This document shows positions 2,086 to 19,995 of a stretch of DNA of 64,000 nt, piece by piece. The notes beneath the pieces were generated by a model. It saw nothing but the letters and a program-made list of their open reading frames with translations, did not search any database and was not told the origin of the DNA. The translations under genes and the position numbers were made by a program. The stretch comes from an uncultured Bacteroidota bacterium (lineage in GTDB: Bacteria; Bacteroidota; Bacteroidia; Flavobacteriales; Flavobacteriaceae), in NCBI GenBank assembly GCA_902520835.1, contig CABYPD010000002.1:1-64000 (forward strand), written 5' to 3'. Positions within the stretch are counted from its first letter, which is position 1; each line of letters begins with the position of its first letter.

Positions 2086-2089
2086 ATTT

Positions 2090-3553
2090 TTAATTTAAAA
2101 TTAAACTTAGTTTTTCTTTCCATTTATTATATGAATCAAAATAAATATTTTTATTTTTAGATGGAATTATTTCTTTTAAAAAATCATTATTTGTTTGTTT
2201 AGATATTTCAACATCAAGACTGGCGGATCTTGCTGCACCATAAGCGCCTGTAACATCAAATATTTCAATTTTACTTTCACTAAGAGTTGAAAAGGTTTTT
2301 GAAAAAACTTCTGATTGAAATAAATTATCATTCCCTGCTCTAATTAAAGTAGGATTTACATTATCATTTTTTAAAATTTCAAGTCCATATATCATTGAAA
2401 AAACTATTCCCTCGATTGAAGATCTTACTAAATGATCTGTAGAATGTTTATTCAAATCTATATTTATAAAACTAGATCCTATATTTTTATTATCAAACAT
2501 TCTTTCAGGACCATTTCCATAAGGGAAAACAAATAGATCTTCAGACCCTACATCTACATTTTCAGCCATATCATTCATTTGATAATATGAATCAATACCA
2601 AGAATATTTTTCATCCATCTATATTTTATTCCAACTCCATTAACACATAGTAATTTACCTAATACTGGATTCTTTCTAGTATAGTTTACATGAGCAAAAT
2701 TATTTATTCTTAAAGACTCTTTTGAACCTAAATTGTCTGAAACAGCATATATTACGCCAGACGTACCAGCAGTAACTGCTACTTCTCCAGGATTAAGAAT
2801 ATTTAAAGAGAGTGCATTGTTTGGTTGGTCTCCAGCCCTATAGTTAATTGGGATATTGTATGGTAATCCAGTTTCATTTGCAGCCTTCCTGTTAGTGAAA
2901 CATTGATTTGTAAAGTTTTCAACAATTTCAGGACATAATGCAGTATTTATTCCATAGTGATCAAATAAAAAATTAGCTAATTTATTTTCTTTATAATCCC
3001 AAAAAATACCCTCAGACAACCCAGTTATTGTAGTTGTGACATCACCAGTCAATTTATAAGCTAAGAAATCCCCAGGAAGCATAAACTTATAAGTCTTATC
3101 ATAAATTTCTGGAAGATTTTCTTTGACCCAAGCAAGTTTAGACGCAGTAAAGTTTCCAGGTGAATTCAGAAGAAATTCCATACATTTTTTTTCTCCAATT
3201 TCAGAAAAAGCTTTATTACCAATATCAACAGCCCTTCCATCACACCAAATTATTGAATTATATAAAACCTGAAAATTTTTATCTACAAGTACAAGTCCAT
3301 GCATTTGATATGAAATTCCTATAGCAACAATTTCAGATGATTTGATTTTAGACTCCTTTATTATTCTTTTTGTTCCATCACAAAAATATTTCCACCATTG
3401 GTCAGGATTTTGTTCAGCCCAATTTTTATTTTTTGAAATAATATTCATTTCATAATTTGGCTCTTGTAATACACAAATTTTTTTCCCATTTTTTGCATTT
3501 GTTAATGCAATTTTCAAAGAAGAGCTTCCCAAATCATATCCAATATTATACAT
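2090..3553 (-). CDS. xylB: Xylulokinase (FGGY family)
   Basis: Phosphorylates D-xylulose to D-xylulose 5-phosphate with ATP. The 487-residue protein shows the N-terminal phosphate-binding motif [12 protein letters not shown] and the C-terminal actin-fold motif around GTSGVIYAV, with [16 protein letters not shown] near the end, as in FGGY kinases. [10 protein letters not shown] is the xylulokinase-like substrate segment. Its start codon follows the GH43 stop without a gap, and xylA follows 4 bases later. FGGY kinases vary in sugar, but adjacency to xylA makes xylulose the obvious substrate. Confidence 0.95.
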
Positions 3554-4597
3554 TTAATCTATTAATGTTGTTATTGTTTCTATAGTTCCATCTGAATTAT
3601 GAGTCATTTCAGAAAATTTAACGTTTCTTAAAAAATCTTTTCCTGAGAGTTGTGTGTCATGATAAAATAAATACCACTTATCTGCAATTTTAATTGTTGA
3701 GTGATGGTTTGTCCATCCCTGAACAGGATTGTTTAAAATTCCTCTGTATGTAAATGGACCATAAGGATTATCACCTGTTGCATATACAATATAGTGCGTA
3801 TTTCCTGTAGAATAACTCAAATAGTAAATTCCATTTCTTTTGTGAATCCATGCCGCCTCAAAAAATCTTCGATCGTGATCTTTAGTAAGTATTGGGTTAC
3901 CATTTTCATCAATGATTCTAATTGGCTTTGGATCTTCTGCAAAACTTATCATATCATTTGACATTTTAGCAATTCTTGGTGAAATAGCAGGACTGTTGGG
4001 AATACCATTATCTTGTGTTTCACATCCGGAGGGAGTATAATTATTATTTTCATCCCATCTTTGAAGTTGTCCACCCCAAATACCTCCAAAATACATATAA
4101 TAAGAACCATCATCATCCTTAAATACAGATGGATCCATACTATAACTGCCCTCTATTGCTGTTTTTTTTGACCTAAAAGGTCCTTCAGGTTTATCTGAAA
4201 CTGCTACACCAATTCTAAATATATCATCTTTATCCTTAGTTGGAAAATATAAATAAAATTTACCATCTTTTTCAGCTGCATCTGGAGCCCAAAATTGTCT
4301 TTTAGCCCATGGTACGTCGTCTAAATCTAAAGCAACGTCATGAATTGTGACTGGTCCTCCGATATAATCCATAGATAAAACTCTGTAATCTCTCATTGCA
4401 TACTGACTTCCACAATCATCGTACAGAGGGTTTTCCTCAATTATATCATGAGATGGGTAAACATATATTTTTCCATTAAAAATATGTGCTGAAGGATCAG
4501 CAGTAAATATTTCTGAAACTAAGGGCTGATCTTTAAATTTATTTTGACTGAAACTTACTGCAGTCACTAAAAAAGCTAAGTATATTATTTTTTTCAT
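3554..4597 (-). CDS. GH43-family glycoside hydrolase (probable beta-xylosidase or arabinofuranosidase)
   Basis: A 347-residue exported five-bladed propeller hydrolase with an N-terminal signal peptide ending near SFSQN. The inverting triad is visible: Asp34 in ADPSAHIF, Asp155 in SMDPSVF and Glu247 in FFEAAWI. GH43 enzymes release xylose or arabinose from xylans and related glycans. The start ATG overlaps the sulfatase stop in an ATGA junction, and xylB follows directly, so terminal xylose release feeding the kinase/isomerase pair is the simplest reading. The subfamily cannot be assigned by eye. No C-terminal CBM is present. Confidence 0.92.
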   Translation of the reverse strand: MKKIIYLAFLVTAVSFSQNKFKDQPLVSEIFTADPSAHIFNGKIYVYPSHDIIEENPLYDDCGSQYAMRDYRVLSMDYIGGPVTIHDVALDLDDVPWAKRQFWAPDAAEKDGKFYLYFPTKDKDDIFRIGVAVSDKPEGPFRSKKTAIEGSYSMDPSVFKDDDGSYYMYFGGIWGGQLQRWDENNNYTPSGCETQDNGIPNSPAISPRIAKMSNDMISFAEDPKPIRIIDENGNPILTKDHDRRFFEAAWIHKRNGIYYLSYSTGNTHYIVYATGDNPYGPFTYRGILNNPVQGWTNHHSTIKIADKWYLFYHDTQLSGKDFLRNVKFSEMTHNSDGTIETITTLID

Positions 4598-6072
4598 TTT
4601 ACTGTAATTGGTCTGTTGCTGAAATCTCTCATTTCTTTTAATTTTTTCGAATAAATTTTTACAATACTTTTATTTTCTGGATTTGTTGAAATATTATAAA
4701 ATTGTTTTTTGTCATTAACCATATCAAATAGCATATTATATTGTACACTTCCATCTTTATTTAAAACTTCATGATATGAGTATTTTTTATCTTGAACAAC
4801 TTCAAGTGTATGATAACGACTATATATTTCACTCTTTGTTTCGTATTTCGGATTTTCCAGAATTTTTTTAAAGCTTTTTCCATGCAAATATTTAGGAACT
4901 TCAATTCCTACAATATCACACAGTGTTGGATATAAATCAATATATTCAACCATTGAATTAGTTTTAATATTTTTTTTCATCCCAGGAGATGAAATAATTA
5001 ACGGTACATGAATTGCTTCTTGAAAAGTATGATGCTTACACCACATTCCATGTTCACCTAGAAAAAATCCATGATCACTCCAAAAAACAATTGTAGTATT
5101 TTCTCTTAAACCCAAAGTTTCAAGCGCATTAATTAATTTACCAACCATTGCATCGGTATAACTTACACTTGCATAATATGATTTAATTAAATCTTCCTCC
5201 ATCTGCACACTAACTGGCCCTTTTAAAGGAATATCAGTATACCCGTTTCTTAATTCAGTCCAATCGTGAGCAATTGACCTAGGAGGTGCATTTACAGGGG
5301 GTGTACGTTGGTCAGAAAAAACTAAATCACTTTTTTTATATAAATCCCCATATTTTGTTGGCTGAATAAACGGGAGATGTGGAGAAACATAACCAACAGC
5401 AAGAAAAAAAGGCTGTTTACTATTTTTATATTTCTTGAGCTGTTTTATGACAGCATCAGTAAGTTTTCCATCATTGTAGGAGTCATCACTGACATCTGCA
5501 TACTCAAAAGCTGGTCCTGCATTTTTTCCACTATATGGAACTATTTTGGTTGAGTTTTTTTGTTTTATTAATGATTCTTCATTTTGATAATCACTTTGTT
5601 CTCTGAAATTTCCAAAATCATCCCAGTCATCTCTGTTATCATCTGCATGGTGAGAAATTTTTCCAAAAGATGCAGTTCTGTAGCCATTTTTTTTAAAAAT
5701 CTGAGGAAGAGTTGTAACATTTGGAGTATCCGTCTCAGCTTTTGAATAATAATGATAAAACCTGTTTAAACTTCCTCTAATTCCAGTCAATATGCTTGCA
5801 CGACTAGCACCACAAACAGCAATATTAACGTAAGCATTATTAAATTGCACACCCTCAGAAGCTAATTTATCTAAGTTAGGTGTGTGCATTTGAGTATTTC
5901 CATAAGAATTTAATAATGGTCTTAAATCATCAACACCAATAAATAAAATATTTTGCTTTTCACCAATTGTACTGTCATCATTTAAAATCTTATGATTTGT
6001 AACTGTTGTGGTAACAGTTAAAATAAAAGATGACAGTACTACTAGCTTAAACACTTTATAAAAAGTACTCAT
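4594..6072 (-). CDS. S1-family sulfatase, iduronate-2-sulfatase-like
   Basis: Type I sulfatase of 492 residues with an N-terminal export signal. The formylglycine site is Cys87 in CGASR (CxAxR) followed by ILTG, and metal-binding Asp48/Asp49 lie in GVDDLRP. FWSDHGFFLGEHGMW is the conserved C-terminal metal-site segment. VDDLRPLL and the CxAxR variant resemble iduronate-2-sulfatase-like members. It lies between susD and GH43, so removing sulfate from the imported or surface-bound oligosaccharide is expected. Activity needs an anaerobic or FGE-type maturase, not seen in the window. The sulfate position is unknown. Confidence 0.93.
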   Translation of the reverse strand: MSTFYKVFKLVVLSSFILTVTTTVTNHKILNDDSTIGEKQNILFIGVDDLRPLLNSYGNTQMHTPNLDKLASEGVQFNNAYVNIAVCGASRASILTGIRGSLNRFYHYYSKAETDTPNVTTLPQIFKKNGYRTASFGKISHHADDNRDDWDDFGNFREQSDYQNEESLIKQKNSTKIVPYSGKNAGPAFEYADVSDDSYNDGKLTDAVIKQLKKYKNSKQPFFLAVGYVSPHLPFIQPTKYGDLYKKSDLVFSDQRTPPVNAPPRSIAHDWTELRNGYTDIPLKGPVSVQMEEDLIKSYYASVSYTDAMVGKLINALETLGLRENTTIVFWSDHGFFLGEHGMWCKHHTFQEAIHVPLIISSPGMKKNIKTNSMVEYIDLYPTLCDIVGIEVPKYLHGKSFKKILENPKYETKSEIYSRYHTLEVVQDKKYSYHEVLNKDGSVQYNMLFDMVNDKKQFYNISTNPENKSIVKIYSKKLKEMRDFSNRPITVK

Positions 6073-6119
6073 GAAAATTTTAGTATGTGAAGTTAAAAAC
6101 TAATATGTAATAAAAAATT

Positions 6120-7739
6120 TTAGTTAATTAACTCATTTGTATTAATCTCATTTAAAGGAATTGGCATATGCATGATTTGATTAGGATCAGTAGAAAACTC
6201 TACTTCTAAGTTTTTAGCATATTTTTTAGCTCCCACACCAACTTTCTTTCCGAAAGAAGAATTGTGAGGAGTTAATGTTTTGTCCTTAAAATACTGAATT
6301 CCTCTTCTTCTAACATGCCAAGAGTCATGACCTTCACCAATTAATTCAAATTTATATTCATCCATTATTGCGTCTCTAAAAGCTACTTGCCCCTGTGAAA
6401 ATTCTGGTCGAGCTGTAACTCCAGCTCTATCAAGAACTGGTTGTAAGTAAGTCATTTCTTGTCCATTACCTAGCTCATTTGCAATTTCAGCAAGCATTAA
6501 TAATAGTTCAGCATATCTATAAACAACGATATTTTGACTATTAAATTGGTTATTATGAGATTTGTCTTTTTCAGTCCACTTAAATAAGTAAGGATGTGCA
6601 ATAGCAAATCTTCCACGTGATGGATTATGCGGATAAACTCTTACTAATCCAGCAGGTGGGGTTCTATCAGCTCTATAATATTGCGAGAGATATGTTGCCT
6701 TGTAACGACTATCTGGAAAAGTATCTAGATTATTAGCATTCCAAGTAGTATTTCCACCATAAGTTTTTAAATGTTTATCATGCTGAAAAGCAGTCACTCT
6801 AAACCAACCAAAGTGCATTCCAGCTTTATACTTCCAGGGTGTGAAGTTTCTTCCCATTTGTGAATTTGTTGCATCTTGGGAGATTTGAAGCTCAAAAATT
6901 GATTCTGAAGAATTTTCACCTTGAACTGTAAATAAACTTGAAAAATCATTTACAAGTGAATATTGACCATAAGCTGATTGAGCAGCCTGATTAGCCATTG
7001 TCCAATAATCCATCGCACTTCCATCAGTTTGTAAATCAGCGTTTGTAGCCATAGTCATGTATACTTTTGCTAATAACATATTAGCTGCATGAGCTTTTGG
7101 ATATCCAACTCCAGCATTTCCATTAAGTAATGAAGCTGCAGTAGAAGCATCCGAAATAATTTGTTGATATACATCAGATTTACTTGAAACTGCTTTATTC
7201 GTATTTCCAGAGGATGGAAGTTCTAACCATAATGGAACATCACCAAATAGGTTTGCCAATTCAAAGTAACTCCATGCTCTGACAAAATATGCATGACCAG
7301 CAACATCATTAAAGACAACTTGATCATTTGATGATGGTGTTGCTACTGTTTCAATATTAGAAATCGCACCATTACATCTTGCAATAGCTTGATATAAACC
7401 TCCCCATACAGCTGACGCATCCATATGATACCCCGGTTTTAGGGAAACTAATGTTGACATATCTCTAGTGTTAACTCTATTTCCACCTTTTCCAGTAAAC
7501 ATTAAACCAGAATATAGATTAGTGATGAACAACCTTCTCTCTTGGGTATTGTATGTGGTTAATGCTTGATAAATACCATCTCGAGCAGCTTGAGCACTTT
7601 GAGAATCTGTGTAAATAGTTTCATCTAAAAAAGGTGGTTCCTCTTCAAGATCACAACCAATAAAAAATAGAATTGGGAGTGTAAAAATTAGATATTTAAA
7701 ATATCTTATTATAAATGTTTTATTTAATAAATTTTTCAT
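6120..7739 (-). CDS. SusD/RagB-family glycan-binding lipoprotein
   Basis: Surface lipoprotein of 539 residues that caps the adjacent SusC channel and captures oligosaccharide. A long signal ends at a lipobox FFIGC with Cys29, followed by the acidic stretch DLEEE expected for export to the outside of the outer membrane. The TPR-like body and the C-terminal VYRYAELLLMLAEIAN segment are SusD hallmarks. It starts 5 bases after the susC stop. Ligand specificity cannot be read from the sequence; the locus points to a sulfated xylose-containing glycan. Confidence 0.95.
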   Translation of the reverse strand: MKNLLNKTFIIRYFKYLIFTLPILFFIGCDLEEEPPFLDETIYTDSQSAQAARDGIYQALTTYNTQERRLFITNLYSGLMFTGKGGNRVNTRDMSTLVSLKPGYHMDASAVWGGLYQAIARCNGAISNIETVATPSSNDQVVFNDVAGHAYFVRAWSYFELANLFGDVPLWLELPSSGNTNKAVSSKSDVYQQIISDASTAASLLNGNAGVGYPKAHAANMLLAKVYMTMATNADLQTDGSAMDYWTMANQAAQSAYGQYSLVNDFSSLFTVQGENSSESIFELQISQDATNSQMGRNFTPWKYKAGMHFGWFRVTAFQHDKHLKTYGGNTTWNANNLDTFPDSRYKATYLSQYYRADRTPPAGLVRVYPHNPSRGRFAIAHPYLFKWTEKDKSHNNQFNSQNIVVYRYAELLLMLAEIANELGNGQEMTYLQPVLDRAGVTARPEFSQGQVAFRDAIMDEYKFELIGEGHDSWHVRRRGIQYFKDKTLTPHNSSFGKKVGVGAKKYAKNLEVEFSTDPNQIMHMPIPLNEINTNELIN

Positions 7740-7743
7740 GTTT

Positions 7744-10700
7744 TTAGAAATTTAAATTTATACCAACTAAGAAAGATTGAGAATTCGGTTTATTATTCCA
7801 ATCTGTTCCTTGTATTAAACCGTCATATAAAAATGTAGTAATTTCTGGATCGTAGCCTGAGTAATCAGTCCAAGTAAATAAGTTTTGTCCAGTAACATAT
7901 ACATTAGCAGATTCAATAAAGTTTATTGAATTCATAGGAAGATCATAACTTACTGTAATATTGTTTAATCTCAAATATGTGCCATCTTCAATAACTCTAT
8001 CCATCAATGCTCCAAATAAATTCGCAGAATACCCTAATCTTGGATAATCATTTGTTGGGTTACTTTGAGTCCATCTATTGTGATATGCATCACTTAAAAT
8101 ATTTCTGTAAGTTCCTTCAGCCCATCCCATACGATAAAGATTTCCATTTACAATATCATTACCACTAACACCGTTAAGTAAAGCACTTAATGAGAAAGAT
8201 TTATATGAAAAATCTAAATTAATTCCATAAACGAAATCAGGATTTGGATTACCAATGACAGTCCTATCGTCTAAATCAACTTGTCCGTCACCATTGAGAT
8301 CTAAAACTTTTATATCACCTGGTTGAGACATAGAACCATTAATTCTATACATTTGGTCACCTGTTTGAAAAATACCATCGGTCTTCCAACCATAAAATAA
8401 TGCAACCTCTTCACCTTCCATAAAAATATTAACGGGGAATTTTATACTATTACCTCTACTTGGTATATTACCAAAATAATGAGATCTTTTTTCTGTTGTA
8501 TATGTTCCATCACCATTATCAACCATTACATTTCCTGGTGTCAAACCAAGATTTTGAATTTCAGTTTTATTAAATGCAATATTTCCACCAATATTTAATG
8601 AAAAATCTCCACTATCTACAATTGCAAGATCTAGGCCTAATTCTAATCCTTTATTTTCTAATGAGCCTCTATTTATAAGAATACTACTAAAACCAGAAGA
8701 TGTAGGAATTGGGCTCTGCTGTAACAAATCTTTTGTAGTTTTTTCATAAAGATCTAAAGTACCAGAAATTTTTCCATTTAAAAATCCAAAGTCTATTCCG
8801 AAATTAAGTTGTTCAGTTGATTCCCAAGTCAATCCTGGATTAGCAATATTAGCTAGGATTAATGGAACTGTTGTTCCATTGTTACTTGTAGCATATAACC
8901 TGGATGAAGCACCATAATTTGAAAGAGTTCCATAAGGACCAATTCCATGATTACCTATTGATCCCCAACCCGCTCTAACTTTAAGGCTTGAAAACAAATT
9001 TAGATTACTAATAAATTTTTCGCTACCTGCTCTCCAAGCAAAAGCAAATGAAGGAAAAAATCCATATCTATTCTCCTCAGCAAACTTTGAGACTCCATCT
9101 CTTCTAAAGCTTGTGGTTAAAGTATATTTATTTTTAAAAGTATAATTAACTCTACCAAGAAGTGAGAAAAGTTGTTGGTCAGATGCTCTCAGTAAGAGAG
9201 GTGTTGAAATAACTTGACCTAAGAAAGGTTGAGCTGTTCCTAACTGCGCCGTAACAAAATCTTCAACAGCATAAACACTGCTTTCAACATCTCTTACATC
9301 ATAAGTAACACCTAAAGCGGCATTAACCCTGTGGTTTTTATTATAATTTCTGTTATATCTTAAAAAATTATTGACTTGATAAGTTAAAGAGTTTAACTTC
9401 ATATTTTGTAATAAGCCATTAGAATTAGCACCTTGCCAAGTAGTTACACCATAAAATCTTGACCTATCTTTATCTCTTAGGTTTCCACCAACCTTAAATT
9501 CATATAATAAACCTGGTGTATTAAATTTATATTTTAAAGCTAGGGATGCAATTAGTCTATTTTCCCTAGATTCATCAGTAAAATCATTGATCCATGCATA
9601 TGGATTTGATATTGTTTGTCCATCAATAAAATCTTCAACATTATCTGCATCATTAGGTATTATTGGATTATAAGTTAATGTTTGTTGAACAAAACTTTGA
9701 TCACCACCTATTAAATCTCCACCCTCAGCAAAGTCAGATTTACTAAAAAAGGAACTTAACCTTGCTTCAATACTTAATTTATCATTTAAATCATAGTTAA
9801 GATTAAGTCTTAAGTCCTGGGTTTTAAAACTTGAATTTTCAACTAAACCATTTAGATCATTAAATCCTGCAGATAAGTAATAATCACCTTTTTCATTACC
9901 GCCTGAGAAAGAAACACCAAAACTAGTACTTACTCCTGTATCATACACTTCATCTTGCCAATTATGAACCTGATTTGGTGTACTATCTACAGTGTTAGTT
10001 TGATTTCCTGAATTATCATTTATATATGAAAAAACTTGACTACCATTAATAACATATCTAGCAGGCTCTCCAACACTAGCTCTTATATCATTTTGATACA
10101 TTGCATATCCAACTCCGTCAAGCATATCGTATGTGTTTGTTATATCTCTAACTGTAGTTGTAACATAAGCGTTAATTTTTCCCTTTTCTTGGTTATTACC
10201 ACCTTTTGTTGTAATCAAAACTACACCATTTGCTCCTCTGGATCCATAAATAGCTGTAGCTGAAGCATCTTTCAAAATTTCAATTCTTTCAATATCTCTT
10301 GGATTTAAGCCATTTAATCCACTTTGAGCTTCTTGTCCTGTATTTCCTGTACCTGTTGGAATTACATCTTCTCCAGCAGATGATATAATAACTCCATCAA
10401 TTACATAAAGAGGTTCATTATTACCTCTCAAACTGTTGGTTCCTCTAATTCTTACACTAACACCGGAATTTGGATTAGCAGAATTTTGAGTTACTTGAAC
10501 ACCTGCAGCTCTTCCTTGTAATAGTTGATCAACAGTAGCAGATTGTCTTGAAACTTCATCTTCAACTACTACTGAACTGACAGCTCCGGTAAGATCTCTT
10601 TTTAAAACAGTACCATATCCAACTACAACAACTTCTTCTAAAGCTTCAGTGTCAGGTTGTAAATTAATGTTAATTGAAAGTTGATTTGATACATCAACCT

Positions 10701-10938
10701 CTTGATTTACATAACCAATGTATGAAATCACAAGTACATTTGATGAATCACTAGGAATTGATATAGAAAAATTTCCATCAAAATCTGTAATTGCACCAAC
10801 TGTATCAGAACCTTTTAACTGAACGGTTGCGCCAGGTAAAGGTGTCCCATTTTCATCATTTACAGTCCCACTAACATTTTTAGACTGTGCAACAATAAAA
10901 AAAGGGAAGATCAAAAAAATAAATAAAATTTTCCTCAT
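7744..10938 (-). CDS. SusC-like TonB-dependent outer-membrane transporter
   Basis: A 1064-residue porin for glycan uptake. In order it has a signal peptide, a carboxypeptidase-D-like domain (GTVNDENGTPLPGATV, about 22-110), the SusC linker VVVVGYGTVLKRDLTGAV, a TonB plug with VRIRGTNSL and YGSRGANGVVLITTK, and a 22-stranded barrel ending in a C-terminal aromatic residue (LNLNF). It pairs with the following susD. The 154-base upstream gap carries two near-identical palindromes that look like regulator sites. No anti-sigma-interacting N-terminal extension (STN domain) is visible, which argues against ECF/anti-sigma control. Confidence 0.97.
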   Translation of the reverse strand: MRKILFIFLIFPFFIVAQSKNVSGTVNDENGTPLPGATVQLKGSDTVGAITDFDGNFSISIPSDSSNVLVISYIGYVNQEVDVSNQLSININLQPDTEALEEVVVVGYGTVLKRDLTGAVSSVVVEDEVSRQSATVDQLLQGRAAGVQVTQNSANPNSGVSVRIRGTNSLRGNNEPLYVIDGVIISSAGEDVIPTGTGNTGQEAQSGLNGLNPRDIERIEILKDASATAIYGSRGANGVVLITTKGGNNQEKGKINAYVTTTVRDITNTYDMLDGVGYAMYQNDIRASVGEPARYVINGSQVFSYINDNSGNQTNTVDSTPNQVHNWQDEVYDTGVSTSFGVSFSGGNEKGDYYLSAGFNDLNGLVENSSFKTQDLRLNLNYDLNDKLSIEARLSSFFSKSDFAEGGDLIGGDQSFVQQTLTYNPIIPNDADNVEDFIDGQTISNPYAWINDFTDESRENRLIASLALKYKFNTPGLLYEFKVGGNLRDKDRSRFYGVTTWQGANSNGLLQNMKLNSLTYQVNNFLRYNRNYNKNHRVNAALGVTYDVRDVESSVYAVEDFVTAQLGTAQPFLGQVISTPLLLRASDQQLFSLLGRVNYTFKNKYTLTTSFRRDGVSKFAEENRYGFFPSFAFAWRAGSEKFISNLNLFSSLKVRAGWGSIGNHGIGPYGTLSNYGASSRLYATSNNGTTVPLILANIANPGLTWESTEQLNFGIDFGFLNGKISGTLDLYEKTTKDLLQQSPIPTSSGFSSILINRGSLENKGLELGLDLAIVDSGDFSLNIGGNIAFNKTEIQNLGLTPGNVMVDNGDGTYTTEKRSHYFGNIPSRGNSIKFPVNIFMEGEEVALFYGWKTDGIFQTGDQMYRINGSMSQPGDIKVLDLNGDGQVDLDDRTVIGNPNPDFVYGINLDFSYKSFSLSALLNGVSGNDIVNGNLYRMGWAEGTYRNILSDAYHNRWTQSNPTNDYPRLGYSANLFGALMDRVIEDGTYLRLNNITVSYDLPMNSINFIESANVYVTGQNLFTWTDYSGYDPEITTFLYDGLIQGTDWNNKPNSQSFLVGINLNF

Positions 10939-11001
10939 TTTTTAGTTAGTTATTATTAATAAAATGAATTTAGCTATAAAAAATCAATAAAAAAATATCT
11001 A

Positions 11002-11013
11002 GAAAACGTTTTC
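11002..11013. promoter_or_regulatory. Palindromic operator candidate 1 upstream of susC
   Basis: GAAAACGTTTTC is a perfect 12-base palindrome with a central CG, the form of LacI/CcpA-class operators. It shares GAAAAC(G/A)TTTTCGTTTA with the site at 11078-11091. It lies 64 bases before the susC start. No LacI-type gene is in the window, so the regulator is inferred. Confidence 0.6.
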
Positions 11014-11077
11014 GTTTATAATATTGATAATTTTGTGGTAATAAAATTATTAAATTATTAAAATAAAAATATTATTA

Positions 11078-11091
11078 CGAAAACATTTTCG
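11078..11091. promoter_or_regulatory. Palindromic operator candidate 2 upstream of susC
   Basis: CGAAAACATTTTCG is a near-perfect palindrome, broken only at the centre, almost identical to site 1 and centred 77 bases from it, close to a whole number of helical turns. It sits one base beyond the stop codon of the upstream sulfatase. Two copies at this spacing suggest cooperative or looping binding. Confidence 0.6.
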
Positions 11092-11092
11092 T

Positions 11093-12478
11093 TTAATAAT
11101 GGGAATGCATGTAAGCGTTAGACTTAATTTTATTTTTCAAATTGTCTGGCACCTTAGTCCATTCAGTTTCTTTATCCAATGGATGCAATGTTGGTTTTAT
11201 TAGTGGCATTTTATTATTTACTAAAAAATCATTTTGTTTTAACATCCAACTTTTTAATTCTTTTTTAAGTTTTACAAGAACATTTCTAAACCTTTTCTCA
11301 TTGATAAGGTTATTCATTTCGTAGGGATCATTGATTAAATCATATAATTCTTCATGTGGTTTATTTTTAAATGATTGAGCTCCGATTTTTATGAATGCAT
11401 TTTTTATAGAATCCATACCTAAATTTTTTTCATGAATGTCATATGAATTATAGTTTATTATGTATTTATATTTACTATCTCTAATTGATCTTGAAGGAAA
11501 AATTTTTGCGTTTCTAACATTTTGCCTTGTGGATATTCCATATGTATATTTTCGTTTATTAGTAGCCCCTTTCAATGAACTTAAAAAGCTATATCCATCA
11601 AGATTTTTGGGAATTTTATTTCCTGTGGATTCTACTATTGTTGGTAGTATGTCAACTAAATTTATCAAATCACCATTCTTTGAGCCTGCCTTAACAACTT
11701 TTGGCCATCTAATAATTAAAGGGATTTTTAATCCAACCTCATCAACTGACCATTTACCCCTTAAACCCCCATCAGAAGCGTATATAAACAATATATTTTC
11801 ATCTTTTTCATTAATTTCAATAAAATCTAAAATTTCATTTAACTGGTTATTATCATAAACAATATTTTGATAATAGCCTTTTTCATTATTTAAACGATAT
11901 TTTTTTGAATAAGGATTATCATAAATATCACTATCCTTAAATTCATTTCTTGTTGGAAAAGGCCCATGAGGATAGTCTGATGCAATAAACAAACAATAAG
12001 GTTTTTTTGCATTTTTTATATAGTTTTTGATTTTACTCATTGGTAATAATTTCCCCTGATTTTTAAAATATTTGGACCAATTAAATACCGAACTTGGGTT
12101 TACATGGCTTTTTCCTGCTAGCACTACTTCATATCCGAATGACTGCAAATAATCATTAATATCAACTGTGTTTTCCTTGACTGGTAAATGATTTGCATAA
12201 CAACCATTTTTTATTGGATACAATCCTGTATAAATTTGAGACCTACTAGGTGCACAAATTGCTTGAGTTGTATATGCATTCTCAAATGTCATTCCCTCAA
12301 GAGCCAAACGATTAATTGGGCTGGATGGAACAAGATTATTACCATAAACATTATGATCTATTTGATCCTTATCATCCGATAAATAAAAAATAATATTTGG
12401 TGGATTTTTATCATGTGTTTCATCATGGATAAAAAATAAAAAAATGAATAAAAAAGTTTTGAAAAATAAGTTGATCAC
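11093..12478 (-). CDS. S1-family sulfatase (heparan N-sulfatase-like), non-ATG start
   Basis: Exported type I sulfatase of about 461 residues. The formylglycine cysteine lies in CAPSR followed by SQIYTGLYP, and the metal site begins at YLSDDKDQ. SDGGLRGKW is the later metal-binding stretch. The frame opens with a TTG at 12484, but that codon lies inside a good -7 promoter element, so GTG at 12478 is chosen; the signal peptide survives either way. It precedes susC across the operator-bearing gap and probably belongs to the same utilisation locus. Layout resembles sulfamidase-like members; the substrate is not known. Confidence 0.88.
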   Translation of the reverse strand: MINLFFKTFLFIFLFFIHDETHDKNPPNIIFYLSDDKDQIDHNVYGNNLVPSSPINRLALEGMTFENAYTTQAICAPSRSQIYTGLYPIKNGCYANHLPVKENTVDINDYLQSFGYEVVLAGKSHVNPSSVFNWSKYFKNQGKLLPMSKIKNYIKNAKKPYCLFIASDYPHGPFPTRNEFKDSDIYDNPYSKKYRLNNEKGYYQNIVYDNNQLNEILDFIEINEKDENILFIYASDGGLRGKWSVDEVGLKIPLIIRWPKVVKAGSKNGDLINLVDILPTIVESTGNKIPKNLDGYSFLSSLKGATNKRKYTYGISTRQNVRNAKIFPSRSIRDSKYKYIINYNSYDIHEKNLGMDSIKNAFIKIGAQSFKNKPHEELYDLINDPYEMNNLINEKRFRNVLVKLKKELKSWMLKQNDFLVNNKMPLIKPTLHPLDKETEWTKVPDNLKNKIKSNAYMHSHY

Positions 12479-12481
12479 AAT

Positions 12482-12513
12482 CAAACTTAACTTAATTCAA
12501 CATAGTAATCAAA
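12482..12513 (-). promoter_or_regulatory. Promoter of the sulfatase at 11093-12478
   Basis: On the minus strand TTTG (12510-12513), a 20-base spacer and TAAGTTTG (12482-12489) match the Bacteroidota -33/-7 consensus exactly. The -7 element ends 3 bases before the GTG start, predicting a leaderless mRNA. Confidence 0.6.
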
Positions 12514-12560: not shown

Positions 12561-12634
12561 GGTCGCGTAGCTCAGCTGGATAGAGCATCTGCCTTCTAAG
12601 CAGACGGTCGCACGTTCGAATCGTGCCGCGATCA
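12561..12634 (+). tRNA. tRNA-Arg (anticodon TCT)
   Basis: A 74-base cloverleaf. The acceptor GGTCGCG pairs with CGCGATC (one G:T), the anticodon stem TCTGC/GCAGA encloses the loop CTTCTAA with TCT, and the T arm GCACG/CGTGC encloses TTCGAAT. The discriminator is A and CCA is not encoded. It separates the polysaccharide locus from the GH20 operon. Confidence 0.97.
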
Positions 12635-12639
12635 CATAA

Positions 12640-12668
12640 ACCCCAACAAAATGTTGGGGTTTTTTTTT
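12640..12668 (+). terminator. Rho-independent terminator after tRNA-Arg
   Basis: ACCCCAACA pairs perfectly with TGTTGGGGT across a 3-base loop, followed by a run of nine T. It is 5 bases after the tRNA. Confidence 0.93.
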
Positions 12669-12707: not shown

Positions 12708-14750
12708 ATGAAATATTTTATCAAAGTATCTTTACTAATCAGCTTTTTTTGTTCATGTAAAAACAATAAAATACAAGAAAGTTTTGTTTTACTGCCAGAC
12801 GTCAAGAATATTGAATTCAATGGAGAATCATCTTCACTTGATCATGATTCTGAATACATTTTTCACTCAGAAAGCAATAATGACATTCCTGTCTTGTTAG
12901 ACAATTCATTAAAATTGATTAAAGGTGATTTTAACAATAATAACTTATCATTTAAAATTAATAATGATTTAGATATTCCAGCAGAGGGATATTATTTAAA
13001 TATTTCTAAAAATAGTATAGATATTACAGCTAAGGATGAAGCTGGGCTTTTTTATTCTTTTAACTCATTAAGACAGTTAATTACTGACTCAAAAGATCAA
13101 AATATTAATTTACCTGTTGTTAAAATTAAAGACTATCCCTCATTAAAATATAGATCAGTTCATATTGATGTAAAACATCATACTGAAAAAAAGGATTATT
13201 ATTTTAAATTAATTGATGAATTAGCTTCAATTAAAATAAATGGAATAATTATAGAGTTTGAAGACAAGCTTGGGTATGAAAGAAGACCAACAATTGCTGC
13301 TCCCGACAGTTATTCAATTTCATGGTGGAAAAGCTTAAGCGAATATGCAAATGAGAGAAATATTAAAATAAGTCCTCTAATTCAAGGTTTAGGACATGCT
13401 TCTTTTATTTTAAAGCATGATAAATACAAAAATTTAAGAGATATACCTAATGATGATTGGGCTTTTAACCCACTTAATCCTAAAACTTATGATGTTCAGT
13501 TTGATTTATATAAAGATGCGATTGATGCTACTCCACATGGTCAATTCCTGCATGTTGGAGGAGATGAGGTAAAAGTGGTTGATAGAGACGGAAAAAAAGG
13601 ATTTGAACTAAACTTAATTTGGTTAAATAAGGTTTCTGAGTTTGCAAAACAAAATAATAGAATCCCAATTTTCTGGGATGACATGTATCTAAAACATGGA
13701 GGAGTGTGGATGGTTACAAGAAATACAAAACTAACAAAAGAAAAAGTAGATAGTATTTGGATTGACAAACAGGAAAAATTAACAGAATATCTTGATAATT
13801 TCCCAAAAAATTGCATTTATATGAGATGGAATTATTTTTCTCCTTGGGCTGAGGGAAATCTTAAGACTATAGATTGGTACAAACAAAATAATCTTAAAGC
13901 AATGGGCGCTACTGCAGGTCAAACAAGATGGATATTAATGCCACAAGACTATGGTAATATTGAAAGAATAAAATCTTTTGCATTGTCTTCTTTTGAAAAA
14001 GACTTGGATGGTTTATTATTAACATTATGGGATGATGACTCACCACATTTTGAGTTATATAAAAGAGGGATTTATGCTTTTGCTAATTATACATGGAATG
14101 GTAATGATTTGAGTCTGGAAGAATTTAAAAATAAATTTAATCATAGGTTCTTTTCTCCTTATGTGAAAAATAATACCAATTTTATAGACGACCTTGATAA
14201 TCCAGTTAGAGATTGGGCTAATTTATTTGTTAAGGAAAAACAGCATAGAAATAGAATAAGTAAAAACAAAAATGCTATTGAAACGCACATCATAGAACTT
14301 CCCAGCTTTGAAAATAAAGGGAAATGGTTAGAATTAAATGCAGAAAAAATTAAAAAAGCCAAAAATCACTCTCAAAACCTTGTAAAAATATTAAAAAACA
14401 TTCAAGAATTAAAAACAAAAACAATTAGAAATAACTATGCCTTAGATGTATATGAGCAAGTTACTAAACTAACTAAATTTAGCTATGATGCTTTTTTAAC
14501 ATTGGAGAATTTAGATAAAGAAGAAGTTTCAATTAATGAAGTGCTTAAATTAAATCAAAAATTTTTTGATGTAAGAAAAGAATTTGAAGATGTTTACTCA
14601 AAAACTAGAAACATAAACAAGCATAACAGTTATATTCTGGATCAAGATGGTCATAACCATACTGCTAATCAATCTTTAAATATGGATTGGCAATTTATTG
14701 CCGAATTAAAGTTATTTGAAAAAATTAAACTTACTTATGAAAAAAATTAG
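12708..14750 (+). CDS. GH20-family beta-N-acetylhexosaminidase-like lipoprotein
   Basis: A 680-residue exported protein with a lipoprotein signal (FFCSCKNN). The N-terminal GH20b-like domain runs to about residue 130, then a TIM barrel with HVGGDEV: Asp286 and Glu287 are the GH20 catalytic pair, His282 precedes them. LTLWDDDSPHFELY near 440 completes the barrel, followed by a helical C-terminal region with coiled-coil character. GH20 enzymes cleave terminal GlcNAc or GalNAc by substrate-assisted catalysis. It leads an operon with DUF1080 and two oxidoreductases. The actual sugar is not established; some GH20 relatives act on sulfated or unusual hexosaminides. Confidence 0.88.
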   Translation: MKYFIKVSLLISFFCSCKNNKIQESFVLLPDVKNIEFNGESSSLDHDSEYIFHSESNNDIPVLLDNSLKLIKGDFNNNNLSFKINNDLDIPAEGYYLNISKNSIDITAKDEAGLFYSFNSLRQLITDSKDQNINLPVVKIKDYPSLKYRSVHIDVKHHTEKKDYYFKLIDELASIKINGIIIEFEDKLGYERRPTIAAPDSYSISWWKSLSEYANERNIKISPLIQGLGHASFILKHDKYKNLRDIPNDDWAFNPLNPKTYDVQFDLYKDAIDATPHGQFLHVGGDEVKVVDRDGKKGFELNLIWLNKVSEFAKQNNRIPIFWDDMYLKHGGVWMVTRNTKLTKEKVDSIWIDKQEKLTEYLDNFPKNCIYMRWNYFSPWAEGNLKTIDWYKQNNLKAMGATAGQTRWILMPQDYGNIERIKSFALSSFEKDLDGLLLTLWDDDSPHFELYKRGIYAFANYTWNGNDLSLEEFKNKFNHRFFSPYVKNNTNFIDDLDNPVRDWANLFVKEKQHRNRISKNKNAIETHIIELPSFENKGKWLELNAEKIKKAKNHSQNLVKILKNIQELKTKTIRNNYALDVYEQVTKLTKFSYDAFLTLENLDKEEVSINEVLKLNQKFFDVRKEFEDVYSKTRNINKHNSYILDQDGHNHTANQSLNMDWQFIAELKLFEKIKLTYEKN

Positions 14751-15447
14751 ATACTGTATATTTTATTTTCTAATCTTGGTTTTTTTAGGTTGCAATTCTT
14801 CAAAAAACCCAAATTGGATATACATGTTTGATGGAAAAACAACTGAAGGATGGAGAGGATATAACAATAAAACAATACCAGAAAAATGGAAAGTAATAGA
14901 TGGTAACTTAACATTTGATACTGAATTAAAATTAGAGGAAGACTGGGATGGTGGAAATGATATCATATACTACAAAGAAGAATTTGACAATTTTGAATTA
15001 TATCTTGAGTGGAAACTTCCAAAAGGTGGAAATAGCGGAATTTTTTATCATGTTCAAGAAGGTTATAATGCTCCACACATGATATCTCCAGAATACCAGA
15101 TTCTCGATGATGATGGGTGGGAAGAAATAAATAATGCTAAACTTATGAATTGGCAAAAAGCTGGAGCTAATTACGGAATGCACGAGCCTAATGGCTCAAA
15201 GAAACTAAATCCATTTGATCAATGGAATAGTTCCAGAATTATATATAAAAATAAAAATGTAGAACATTGGTTAAATGGAAAACTTATTTTATCTTTTGAA
15301 GAAGATTCAGAGGAATGGAATAATTTGAAGAACTCCGATGTATTTGAAGACAAACCAGACTATGGAAAGTTTAAAAAAGGATACATTGCTTTACAGGATC
15401 ATGATACTCCAATTTGGTTTAGAAACATAAGAATAAAAAAATTATAG
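14737..15447 (+). CDS. DUF1080 lipoprotein, putative 3-keto-glycoside hydrolase
   Basis: About 236 residues. The start at 14737 is preferred over 14716 because it gives a clean lipoprotein signal (MKKIRYC to FLGCNSS) and overlaps the GH20 end by only 14 bases. The body is a DUF1080 (PF06439) concanavalin-like fold with MFDGKTTEGWRGY, NSGIFYHVQEG and the final IWFRNIRIKKL. Members of this family have been shown to cleave 3-keto-glycosides made by Gfo/Idh/MocA oxidoreductases, and two such oxidoreductases follow here. Function is therefore a family- and context-based inference. Confidence 0.87.
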   Translation: MKKIRYCIFYFLILVFLGCNSSKNPNWIYMFDGKTTEGWRGYNNKTIPEKWKVIDGNLTFDTELKLEEDWDGGNDIIYYKEEFDNFELYLEWKLPKGGNSGIFYHVQEGYNAPHMISPEYQILDDDGWEEINNAKLMNWQKAGANYGMHEPNGSKKLNPFDQWNSSRIIYKNKNVEHWLNGKLILSFEEDSEEWNNLKNSDVFEDKPDYGKFKKGYIALQDHDTPIWFRNIRIKKL

Positions 15448-15448
15448 T

Positions 15449-16795
15449 ATGTTAGACAGAAGAAAATTTATAAAAAATACATCTGTGCTTAGTACCTTGC
15501 CTTTTTTACCAAATTTTAATTTTTTTAAAACAACTAAAAAATTTATAAGAACAGCACATATAGGTGTTGGTGGTATGGGTAAATCTGATTTAAAGGACAC
15601 AGCATCTCATAAAAATGTTAAAGTAGTAGCGCTATGCGATGTGGACTCAAACGCACTTGAAGAAGCTGGAAAACTTTTTCCTGATGCAAAAAAATATAAG
15701 GACTACAGAGTCTTAATTAAAGAGATGTCTGAAGATATAGATGCTGTGATTGTTTCAGCACCTGATCATACACATGCACCGGCTTCAATTCTTGCAATGG
15801 AAAACAATAAGCATGTTTATTGTCAAAAGCCTCTTACTAATTATGTTTCAGAGTCTAGGGAAATGAAAAGATTAGCGGAAGAAAAAAACCTAATAACTCA
15901 GATGGGGATTCAAGTTCATTCATTTTACGATTATAAATTAGCTACGCTCCTGATTCAATCTGGTTTAATAGGTAAGGTCAGTAAAGTAAGAGCATGGTCT
16001 CCAAAGAATTGGGGCTATGATGGACCCAAACATACTGGTGCTGATGACATTCCCCAAAACCTTGATTGGAACTTGTGGCTTGGGACAGCACAGTCAAGAC
16101 CCTACAAAGAAAAAATATATCATCCTGCAATGTGGAGAAAAATAGAAGATTTTGGATGTGGTACATTGGGAGATATGGGAGTTCATATCTTTGACACACC
16201 CTACAATGCCTTACAATTAGATGTTCCACTTACCATAAAAAATAAGTGCAGAAAGTACAATAGTTATGCTTTTCCTGAAAAAAATTTCGTTGAATATGAT
16301 TTTCCTGGAACTAAATACACAACTGAAAAATTAAAGTGGATATGGGAAGATGGAAAAGGAGCCCCTAGGAGACATAAAGATTTAAAATTACCAAATAACG
16401 ATAAGCTTCCTCTTCAGGGGGCAATGTTTATAGGTGAAAATGGTAAAAAGCTTCTTCTACCACACTTTATGGAATTACCTAGGTTTATAGAAAATGATGA
16501 ATATAAAGATTTTGATGTATCAACTTTTGTCACAAATAATCAGCTGAGCAAGATTCCTGTAAGAGATTACGATGGTGAATCACATTTACATTATCATCAA
16601 TTTATAGATGCATGCTTAGGTAAAGATAAATGTACGGCACCTTTTTCTTACTCTGCAAAATTAACAGAAACAATTCTTTTAGGCGTAATTGCTGGTAGAT
16701 TTCCTGGAAAAACTTTAAATTGGGATAGTTCAACCGCTAAATTTAGAGAGACTGAGGCAAACAAATATTTAAGTTCAAAATATAGAAATTTTTAA
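15449..16795 (+). CDS. Tat-exported Gfo/Idh/MocA-family oxidoreductase 1
   Basis: A 448-residue NAD(P)-dependent sugar oxidoreductase. RRKFIK at the N-terminus is a Tat signal, so it folds with cofactor and is exported. The Rossmann motif is HIGVGGMGKSD (about 38-47). The EKP motif appears as QKP at 126-128, a variant common in exported members. GDMGVHIFD carries the likely catalytic His. It starts one base after the DUF1080 stop. Periplasmic oxidation of a sugar hydroxyl (possibly C3) fits the neighbour; the specific substrate is unknown. Confidence 0.88.
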   Translation: MLDRRKFIKNTSVLSTLPFLPNFNFFKTTKKFIRTAHIGVGGMGKSDLKDTASHKNVKVVALCDVDSNALEEAGKLFPDAKKYKDYRVLIKEMSEDIDAVIVSAPDHTHAPASILAMENNKHVYCQKPLTNYVSESREMKRLAEEKNLITQMGIQVHSFYDYKLATLLIQSGLIGKVSKVRAWSPKNWGYDGPKHTGADDIPQNLDWNLWLGTAQSRPYKEKIYHPAMWRKIEDFGCGTLGDMGVHIFDTPYNALQLDVPLTIKNKCRKYNSYAFPEKNFVEYDFPGTKYTTEKLKWIWEDGKGAPRRHKDLKLPNNDKLPLQGAMFIGENGKKLLLPHFMELPRFIENDEYKDFDVSTFVTNNQLSKIPVRDYDGESHLHYHQFIDACLGKDKCTAPFSYSAKLTETILLGVIAGRFPGKTLNWDSSTAKFRETEANKYLSSKYRNF

Positions 16796-16798
16796 ATA

Positions 16799-18196
16799 AT
16801 GAATAATTTAAATAGAAGAAGTTTTTTAAAATCATCATCAATTTTGGCAGGAGCTACATTAATAACTCCTACCCTACTTAGCTGTCATAACCCAAACTCA
16901 AAACTAAATATAGCAGTAATTGGTGTTGGAGGAAGAGGCAGAGCAAACTGGAATCCTGTATTAGAAACCGAGAACATTGTTGCAATGTGTGACGTAGATG
17001 ATAAAACTGCAAAAAAAGGTTATGATAGAATTATTGAAGTTAGTCCTACAGTTAAAAAATATAAAGACTTCAGAGTTATGTTTGATGAAATGCATAAACA
17101 AATTGATGCAGTAATCATAAGCACACCTGATCACACACATTTTGCTGCTGCAATGATAGCTATGGAAATGGGAAAGCATGTATACATAGAGAAGCCATTA
17201 GCTCATAGTGTTTGGGAATGTAGAACATTGAAAAAAGCTGCAAACTATTACAATATTGTTTCCCAAATGGGTAACCAGGGTCACACAACAAACGGAATAA
17301 GATTAATAAAAGAATGGTACGAAGCTGGTATTCTTGGTGAAGTTGAGGAAATTCATGCTTGGATTGGTGGATACAACTTTGGAAAGGGGCACTATTTTGA
17401 TCTTCCTGAAAATTTTCCCCCTCCTGAAAATGAAATTCCTGATCATTTAAATTGGGATCTTTGGTTAGGACCTAGAGAAAACAGAGATTATAACTCAATT
17501 TATGCTCCGAGATCATGGAGAGGTTTTTTTGACTTTGGTAATGGGAAATTAGGAGATTGGTCATGCCACACTCTTGATGGTCCATTTTGGGCGATGGATT
17601 TAGGTATGCCAACTGAGGTCGATTCATATGTTGAGAACAGGTTTAATGAACATCATTTTGTCTCTGAAAAATCTATTGTAACTTATAAGTTTCCAAAAAA
17701 TGATAAAAGAAATGGAGTAACATTAAAATGGTTTGAAGGTATTCCACCTCAAAATGACCCGTATTGGGCAGCTGAAGAGTTAAAAGCTTGGGGAAAGGAA
17801 CTACCAACTTGGGGCGGAATGATAATGCGAGGCTCTAAAAGATCACTCTACACACATGGTAGACCAAATACTCCTGAATTATTAGTTTCAGAAAATGAAT
17901 GGAATGATATTCAAAAAAGTCTCCCTGAGCAAACAATTCCTAGGTTGAAATGGGGAGATGAAACACCTGTTCAAGAATGGATTGATGCCATAAAAAATGA
18001 TTACTTACCTGAGTCAAACTTTAACTACTCTGCTGATCTGACTGAGATGGCACTCATTGGCACTCTTTCCCAAAGATTTGGGGCAAGAATTATTTATGAT
18101 ACAGAAAATATGAAAATCACAAACCGACCTGATATTGATTCTTACATAAAAGAAACTGTAAGGGAAGGGTGGGAATATGGAAACTCATTAGTTTAG
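16799..18196 (+). CDS. Tat-exported Gfo/Idh/MocA-family oxidoreductase 2 (probable lipoprotein)
   Basis: A 465-residue relative of the preceding enzyme. NRRSFLK is a Tat signal and TLLSC (Cys29) looks like a lipobox, so it may be membrane-anchored. IGVGGRGRAN binds NAD(P), EKP is intact at 131-133, and GDWSCHTLD holds the likely catalytic His. The two paralogues differ in EKP versus QKP, suggesting different substrates or opposite directions of one redox cycle. It is 3 bases after the first and ends by overlapping the convergent DUF3089 gene by 9 bases. Confidence 0.88.
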   Translation: MNNLNRRSFLKSSSILAGATLITPTLLSCHNPNSKLNIAVIGVGGRGRANWNPVLETENIVAMCDVDDKTAKKGYDRIIEVSPTVKKYKDFRVMFDEMHKQIDAVIISTPDHTHFAAAMIAMEMGKHVYIEKPLAHSVWECRTLKKAANYYNIVSQMGNQGHTTNGIRLIKEWYEAGILGEVEEIHAWIGGYNFGKGHYFDLPENFPPPENEIPDHLNWDLWLGPRENRDYNSIYAPRSWRGFFDFGNGKLGDWSCHTLDGPFWAMDLGMPTEVDSYVENRFNEHHFVSEKSIVTYKFPKNDKRNGVTLKWFEGIPPQNDPYWAAEELKAWGKELPTWGGMIMRGSKRSLYTHGRPNTPELLVSENEWNDIQKSLPEQTIPRLKWGDETPVQEWIDAIKNDYLPESNFNYSADLTEMALIGTLSQRFGARIIYDTENMKITNRPDIDSYIKETVREGWEYGNSLV

Positions 18197-19275: not shown

Positions 19276-19995
19276 ATGTTGAAAATATTAAATAAGCTAA
19301 TTAGTTTATCTCTATTTGCATTACTTTTTTCTTGTTCTTCTAATAATAGTATTTATTTGACAAAGTTAAAAAACTCCCCCTCTTATGAAAATTCAAAACT
19401 GACACTTAAAGATTTGATAACAGATGAAGATGATTATTTGTTCAATTTTGAGATAGATGAATATATGCTAGGAGAACAAACAAAAGGAAATTTTGAATTT
19501 CAAATTGCAAATTCTGCTCAGGGGCAACATATTCACTACATACTTAATAATGGACCATATTCTGCTCATTATGAAAATTCATTCAAAAAAACATTAAATA
19601 AAGAAAATAATATTGTTTTAGCATTTTTATCAAGATCCTATCACGAGTCCGTTAAAAATAAGGATGCCTACTTTATTGGTCAATTTGGTGAAGAAAAAAT
19701 TGATTTGAGTAAAGAATTTTTATTTTACAGTAGACCCAAAGGAACTTATACTGGTGCTGATACAGAAAGAATATTATTAGATTTTTACTTAATAAACAAT
19801 ACACTTTCTCATGAAGGAAATCGCGTAAGAGCAACTATAAATGATGAGGAGTTTTTTATCTATGAGTGGTCCCCCTACATTATCAATGGACTTCCAAAAG
19901 GTGAGACTATAATTAAATTAGAATTATTAGACAATCAAAACAATTTAATTGAAAACCCATTTAATCCAACAACTAGGACGATTATTTTAGAGTAA
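19276..19995 (+). CDS. Uncharacterised lipoprotein
   Basis: A 239-residue protein I do not recognise. It begins with a lipoprotein signal (LFALLFSCSSN, Cys about 20) and the rest looks like a beta-rich periplasmic domain: alternating hydrophobic segments, QGQHIHYILNNGPY, SRSYHESVKN, and a C-terminal IIKLELLDNQN typical of an immunoglobulin-like strand. His- and Tyr-rich positions could bind a ligand or metal. It is divergent from DUF3089 with 20 bases between starts. It ends 28 bases before the convergent acyltransferase with no obvious hairpin. Confidence 0.75.
   Translation: MLKILNKLISLSLFALLFSCSSNNSIYLTKLKNSPSYENSKLTLKDLITDEDDYLFNFEIDEYMLGEQTKGNFEFQIANSAQGQHIHYILNNGPYSAHYENSFKKTLNKENNIVLAFLSRSYHESVKNKDAYFIGQFGEEKIDLSKEFLFYSRPKGTYTGADTERILLDFYLINNTLSHEGNRVRATINDEEFFIYEWSPYIINGLPKGETIIKLELLDNQNNLIENPFNPTTRTIILE

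Follow-up and report, generated by a model that had tools for sequence, protein, structure and literature searches.

Keto (non-hydrolytic) cleavage of glycans has been recognised only recently and is described chiefly for glucosides and disaccharides. The 'alternative broad-specificity pathway' encoded by BT2156-BT2159 of Bacteroides thetaiotaomicron was reportedly described by Nasseri et al. in 2024 (Nature 631:199). The 2024 Nature study on keto-glycosides is cited in PMC12550630, and the chain of oxidation, elimination, hydration and reduction is established chemistry in related systems (PMC10628242). Within the DUF1080 family, BT2157 has been described as a 3-ketotrehalose hydrolase and another protein has been proposed as a 3'-ketolactose hydrolase (PMC9007349). 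The stretch of DNA analysed here, 64,000 nucleotides from an uncultured member of the Flavobacteriaceae (contig CABYPD010000002.1, positions 1 to 64,000; the window), carries at 12708-18196 an operon which, like BT2156-BT2159, combines one DUF1080 protein with two enzymes of the Gfo/Idh/MocA family (GFO1 and GFO2), here together with a GH20 enzyme. With slightly better than even confidence, we favour the reading that this operon offers two complementary ways, one hydrolytic and one redox, to trim a single sulfated amino-sugar glycan in the periplasm.

All four genes of this quartet lie on the + strand and are spaced by -14, 1 and 3 bases. The first (12708..14750) encodes a GH20 lipoprotein of 680 amino acids with Pfam domains PF02838 and PF00728 above cut-off. 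The second (14737..15447; PF06439), whose likely ATG at 14737 gives a 14-base overlap with the GH20 gene, encodes the DUF1080 (3keto-disac_hyd) lipoprotein. They are followed by GFO1 (15449..16795) and GFO2 (16799..18196), both matching PF01408 and carrying a twin-arginine translocation (Tat) signal, with QKP at 126 and GDMGVH at 241 in GFO1, and EKP at 131 and GDWSCH at 252 in GFO2, which is probably lipidated as well. Coordinates and families confirm the arrangement of four co-directional genes given in an earlier note on this DNA. The same note held all four products to be exported, both oxidoreductases by Tat, and this is borne out by lipobox Cys17 in GH20, lipobox Cys19 in the DUF1080 protein, the Tat motif RRKFI in GFO1, and RRSFL together with lipobox Cys29 in GFO2, all of them motif readings and not the output of a signal-peptide predictor. 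A TatC gene is present in the window genome.

The GH20 protein, the sole GH20 of the assembly, scores 49.8 against PF00728 (cut-off 22.3) and 50.7 against PF02838 (cut-off 26.1), and its AlphaFold (AF2) model, with a mean predicted local distance difference test score (pLDDT) of 84, finds its best structural matches among GH20 hexosaminidases. The start of the barrel resembles Trichuris suis HEX-2, a HEXD-type enzyme with the active-site residues K66, D198-E199, W246, W272-x-Y274 and W348 (PMC11308363). Counterparts of all seven residues are present (K156, D286-E287, W323, W374-x-Y376 and W441) and are invariant among 14 orthologs, including the catalytic Asp-Glu pair D286-E287 within the motif HVGGDEV. 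K156 and D286-E287 were assigned by alignment to HEX-2, whereas W323 and W441 were paired with W246 and W348 through low-scoring alignment segments, and W374-x-Y376 was placed by its spacing and by the strand that it occupies in the model, the residue alignment of the C-terminal half of the barrel to a solved GH20 having stopped short of it. A degenerate, non-catalytic member of the family was rejected, every pocket residue being there. Substrate-assisted hydrolysis requires a complete acetamido pocket; since GH20 has one, it is most likely a HEXD-like exo-beta-N-acetylhexosaminidase that works by classical hydrolysis and would need no keto intermediate. A keto route for the hexosaminide bond cut by GH20 itself, as suggested beforehand, is thus not supported, since every ortholog retains the Asp-Glu pair and the acetamido pocket of Trp and Tyr typical of classical retaining hexosaminidases.

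The DUF1080 protein reaches 173.7 bits against PF06439 (gathering cut-off 26.8), a family now named 3-keto-disaccharide hydrolase. Its nearest solved relative is 3u1x, followed by 8tda/8rr2, and 8tde is also among its relatives; for both GFO1 and GFO2 the nearest solved relatives are 8tdf/8tdh. We take 8tda/8tde and 8tdf/8tdh to be entries of the 2024 Nature keto-glycoside study. Both oxidoreductases keep the catalytic Lys and the Asp-x3-His motif, with QKP in place of EKP in GFO1. Against the curated model of the BT_2158 glycoside 3-dehydrogenase (NF058561, cut-off 750) GFO1 scores 291.6 and GFO2 349.4; against that of the BT_2159 disaccharide 3-dehydrogenase (NF058563, cut-off 650) the values are 53.3 and 35.6. 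Equivalence to BT_2158 or BT_2159 was rejected, both proteins falling below both cut-offs, and with scores well under that for BT_2158 they are to be regarded as relatives, not as proven members. They are also excluded as GH109 enzymes, as the PF21252 C-terminal domain and the GHGG loop of that family are absent from GFO1 and GFO2. The two proteins belong to different clades, and relatives of GFO2 usually adjoin genes for GMC (LacA-like) dehydrogenases and their small subunits. A second DUF1080/GFO/GMC/small-subunit operon lies on contig C1 of the window genome (L075:4439-9079), and its GFO matches BT_2158 better, with 443 bits. DUF1080 proteins number 4 to 25 copies per genome in the Bacteroidota genomes G517, G429 and G162; this expansion suggests that 3-keto-type chemistry reaches far wider than the few characterised cases.

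The complete quartet is found in order in 13 of the 15 informative GH20-encoding contigs of related marine flavobacteria, with GH20 identity down to 60%, and is therefore not a chance arrangement. In L008 and L016, GH20 is separated from DUF1080-GFO1, and a relative of GFO2 is found a few kb off, beside a GMC oxidoreductase and a small subunit. The exact quartet is confined to this clade, the window genome being its only carrier in a sample of 150 Flavobacteriaceae genera. The GH20 subfamily occurs in 12 of these genera (11 with a full-length protein), GFO1-like proteins (E<1e-200) in 28 and GFO2-like proteins in 7. A strong GFO1 is encoded in 8 of the 11 genomes with full-length GH20 (hypergeometric probability 6.5e-5, a figure that takes no account of relatedness, nor of the fact that glycan degraders tend to encode the two together). 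The conservation of the quartet beyond close relatives, raised in the earlier note, accordingly fails for the exact four genes and holds for the GH20-DUF1080-GFO1 core, which is co-clustered in another genus.

DUF1080 and GFO1 form the core two-gene module, which is related to the BT2156-BT2159 system and widespread in Flavobacteriaceae: DUF1080 lies directly upstream of GFO1 on the same strand in 12 of 14 loci from other genera, and one gene away in a thirteenth. This conserved pairing, together with 8tda and 8tdf as nearest solved relatives, upholds the proposal that DUF1080 and Gfo/Idh/MocA enzymes act together as a 3-keto-glycoside module. In other genera, many of the pairs lack adjacent amino-sugar genes, which weakens the idea of a hexosamine-specific module.

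Linkage to amino-sugar genes is seen in genus G397, where a cluster of about 30 kb runs sulfatase-GH20-GH109-DUF1080-GH2-GFO1-FGE-AP_endonuc_2-GFO3-esterase and continues with DUF1501-PSD1, a symporter, FGE, a sulfatase, a nucleotidyltransferase, a further symporter and a NagB fusion. Identities to the window operon are 54% for GH20, 51% for DUF1080 and 72% for GFO1. The same cluster is found in the window genome at 274-296 kb of contig C1, mostly 63-84% identical gene by gene. This second locus holds GH109 (with a PF21252 domain and the loop as SGHGG), AP_endonuc_2 (with a Tat signal), GFO3, sulfatases and NagB, and it is without GH20, DUF1080, GH2 and GFO1. Orthologs of three of these four missing genes (GH20, DUF1080 and GFO1) are those of the window operon. 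G397 thus keeps together what the window genome splits into two loci, which ties the quartet to the use of sulfated amino-sugar glycans and supplies a candidate hydratase.

Comparable associations occur elsewhere. GH109, DUF1080 and GFO1 are linked in G413; in G486 an independent operon combines a chitobiase-type GH20 with NagX, an SIS protein, two DUF1080 proteins, an unknown protein and GFO1; and in three genera (L038, L045 and L049) GH20 stands head-to-head with a more distant DUF1080, a NagX-like gene adjoining one of them. In G472, GH20 is followed by PSD1-DUF1501. Altogether, GH20 lies within 3 kb of DUF1080 in 5 of 15 genomes where 0.46 would be expected, with a probability of 6e-5 if the cases are independent, rising to about 0.01 when the three head-to-head loci are treated as a single case. 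Amino-sugar glycan as the putative target of the quartet is therefore well supported, and the amino-sugar substrate named in the earlier note agrees with both the GH109/NagB/sulfatase cluster of G397 and the NagX-SIS-GH20 cluster of G486.

Several further features of these neighbourhoods were observed. An exported protein of 745 amino acids with no Pfam or NCBIfam match (L056:9353-11590) is encoded between DUF1080 and GFO1 in an operon with GH20, NagX and an SIS protein. In L038, a fructosamine-kinase gene is located nearby, as is a pyrroloquinoline quinone (PQQ)-type sugar dehydrogenase with cytochrome c. A pair of a PSCyt1/PSCyt2/PSD1 cytochrome-like protein and DUF1501, best known from Planctomycetes and Verrucomicrobia, occurs in flavobacterial amino-sugar loci (L076:2121-5876, L074:4666-8064 and L047:11266-16006), directly after GH20 in L047.

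The gene neighbourhoods of relatives suggest that GH20 and the keto module act on the same sulfated amino-sugar glycan at different bonds. Gene content and order, conservation, intact motifs and locus linkage are observed directly, while the substrates are inferred. As its intact active site indicates, GH20 would remove terminal beta-linked N-acetylgalactosamine or N-acetylglucosamine by a substrate-assisted retaining mechanism. For the redox branch, protein families and conserved linkage point to a sequence in which GFO1, as a nicotinamide adenine dinucleotide (NAD)-type enzyme with a tightly held cofactor, may oxidise C3 of another residue, DUF1080 may eliminate the aglycone across C1-C2, and the Tat-signal AP_endonuc_2 protein of the second locus may hydrate the resulting enone. 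Reduction of the 3-keto sugar by GFO1 or GFO2 would then close the redox cycle, while the second locus could deal with alpha-linked N-acetylhexosamine through GH109, with sulfate through its sulfatases and with the released amino sugar through NagB. The marine operon and its linkage in G397 provide a concrete, testable case in which keto cleavage would be combined with classical hydrolysis on sulfated amino-sugar glycans, and the gene set of the DUF1080-GFO1 core, AP_endonuc_2 and GFO3 can be used for choosing substrates.

Several observations weigh against this combined hydrolytic and redox reading. The nearest solved relative of the DUF1080 protein, 3u1x, is a structural-genomics entry without stated activity; the single-domain DUF1080 protein THTE_1561 has been described as an endo-xanthanase/lichenase (PMC9007349); and the scores of both GFOs stay below the BT_2158 cut-off. 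Moreover, the three above-cut-off copies of AP_endonuc_2 in the window genome all lie outside the operon, the exact quartet is clade-restricted with most GH20 orthologs elsewhere not adjoining GFO1, and W-x-Y in GH20 was assigned from residue spacing and from its strand instead of a structural alignment. The first three points, to which the scores below the BT_2159 cut-off may be added, would fit a DUF1080 protein that is an ordinary hydrolase or a glycan-binding lipoprotein, with GFOs that reduce or epimerise released sugars and no keto-elimination at all. We consider this unlikely, given that the DUF1080-GFO1 pairing persists over genera, that both proteins best match two components of a characterised system, and that Tat export implies folding with bound cofactor before export. 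The redox module might instead act on the hexosaminides themselves, with GFO1 oxidising C3 of a terminal N-acetylhexosaminide, DUF1080 performing the elimination and GH20 only preparing or salvaging oligosaccharides, in the manner of a split, multi-enzyme GH109 analogue; this comes near to the idea of the earlier note. The repeated linkage of DUF1080-GFO1 with GH20, GH109, NagX and NagB speaks for such a module, and GH109 shows that oxidation and elimination are feasible on 2-acetamido sugars (PMC10628242). However, a complete classical GH20 and GH109 would already cover beta- and alpha-hexosaminides, the DUF1080 substrates named in the literature covered here are 2-hydroxy sugars (3-ketotrehalose and the proposed 3'-ketolactose), and DUF1080-GFO1 pairs exist without a neighbouring amino-sugar gene, which makes this arrangement quite improbable. 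An equally small chance is given to its extended form, in which DUF1080, GFO1/GFO2 and AP_endonuc_2 would make up a GH109-like multi-enzyme route cleaving N-acetylhexosaminides, including linkages or sulfated forms beyond the reach of GH20; if true, it would extend 3-keto glycan cleavage to 2-acetamido sugars.

The surroundings of the operon allow for a further explanation. Divergent from the quartet, 757-12484 encodes xylose isomerase (xylA), xylulokinase (xylB), GH43, two sulfatases and SusCD, and looks like a polysaccharide utilisation locus (PUL) for sulfated (arabino)xylan; the marine flavobacterial genome that carries it is very small. Quartet and PUL are directly adjacent in the window and in L002, L005, L009, L010 and L011, as would be the case if the operon belonged to the PUL and trimmed side chains of its sulfated xylan. 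However, the units are divergent, and between them, directly 5' of the quartet, lie a tRNA-Arg(TCT) gene and a short terminator-like hairpin with a T-run (12561..12667, + strand). L006, L007 and L012 retain the quartet next to xylAB but lack the GH43/sulfatase/SusCD block, and on these grounds membership in the PUL was rejected as the leading explanation. No role on xylan would be expected of a GH20, and in G397 GH20-DUF1080-GFO1 sit within the amino-sugar cluster, so that we regard PUL membership as very unlikely. On the 3' side of the quartet, GFO2 overlaps at its end with a convergent DUF3089 gene, and a conserved lipoprotein-like protein of 239 amino acids without a Pfam match (19276-19995) adjoins the operon in synteny throughout the clade.

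A literature search found no paper describing keto cleavage of hexosaminides or operons that join GH20 with DUF1080; the novelty of the quartet is a new combination on a known kind of pathway, not new chemistry. The window operon differs from BT2156-BT2159 in the addition of GH20, in the position of AP_endonuc_2, whose copies lie elsewhere in the genome, and in its two GFOs, which are both BT2158-like, though below cut-off, instead of one BT2158 and one BT2159. The lactose route of Caulobacter, LacABC with DUF1080 (PMC9007349), shares periplasmic 3-oxidation followed by DUF1080 action, and GFO2 relatives adjoin GMC (LacA-like) and small-subunit genes; the window operon, however, has NAD-type GFOs and is without a GMC complex. 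GH109, an NAD-dependent alpha-N-acetylgalactosaminidase, resembles the GFOs in the Gfo/Idh/MocA fold and in transient oxidation, and it is found by GH20 and DUF1080 in relatives as well as in the second locus of the window genome, whereas GFO1 and GFO2 are without its C-terminal domain and its GHGG acid/base loop. Finally, GH20 shares with the HEXD-like enzymes (Trichuris suis HEX-2, 8QK1, and human hexosaminidase D) the Asp-Glu pair, the pocket of W, W-x-Y and W, a Lys replacing the usual Arg, and the E-x-ED motif after the second strand, but differs from them in being a lipoprotein of about 680 amino acids, in its GH20b domain and in the greater length of its helical C-terminus.

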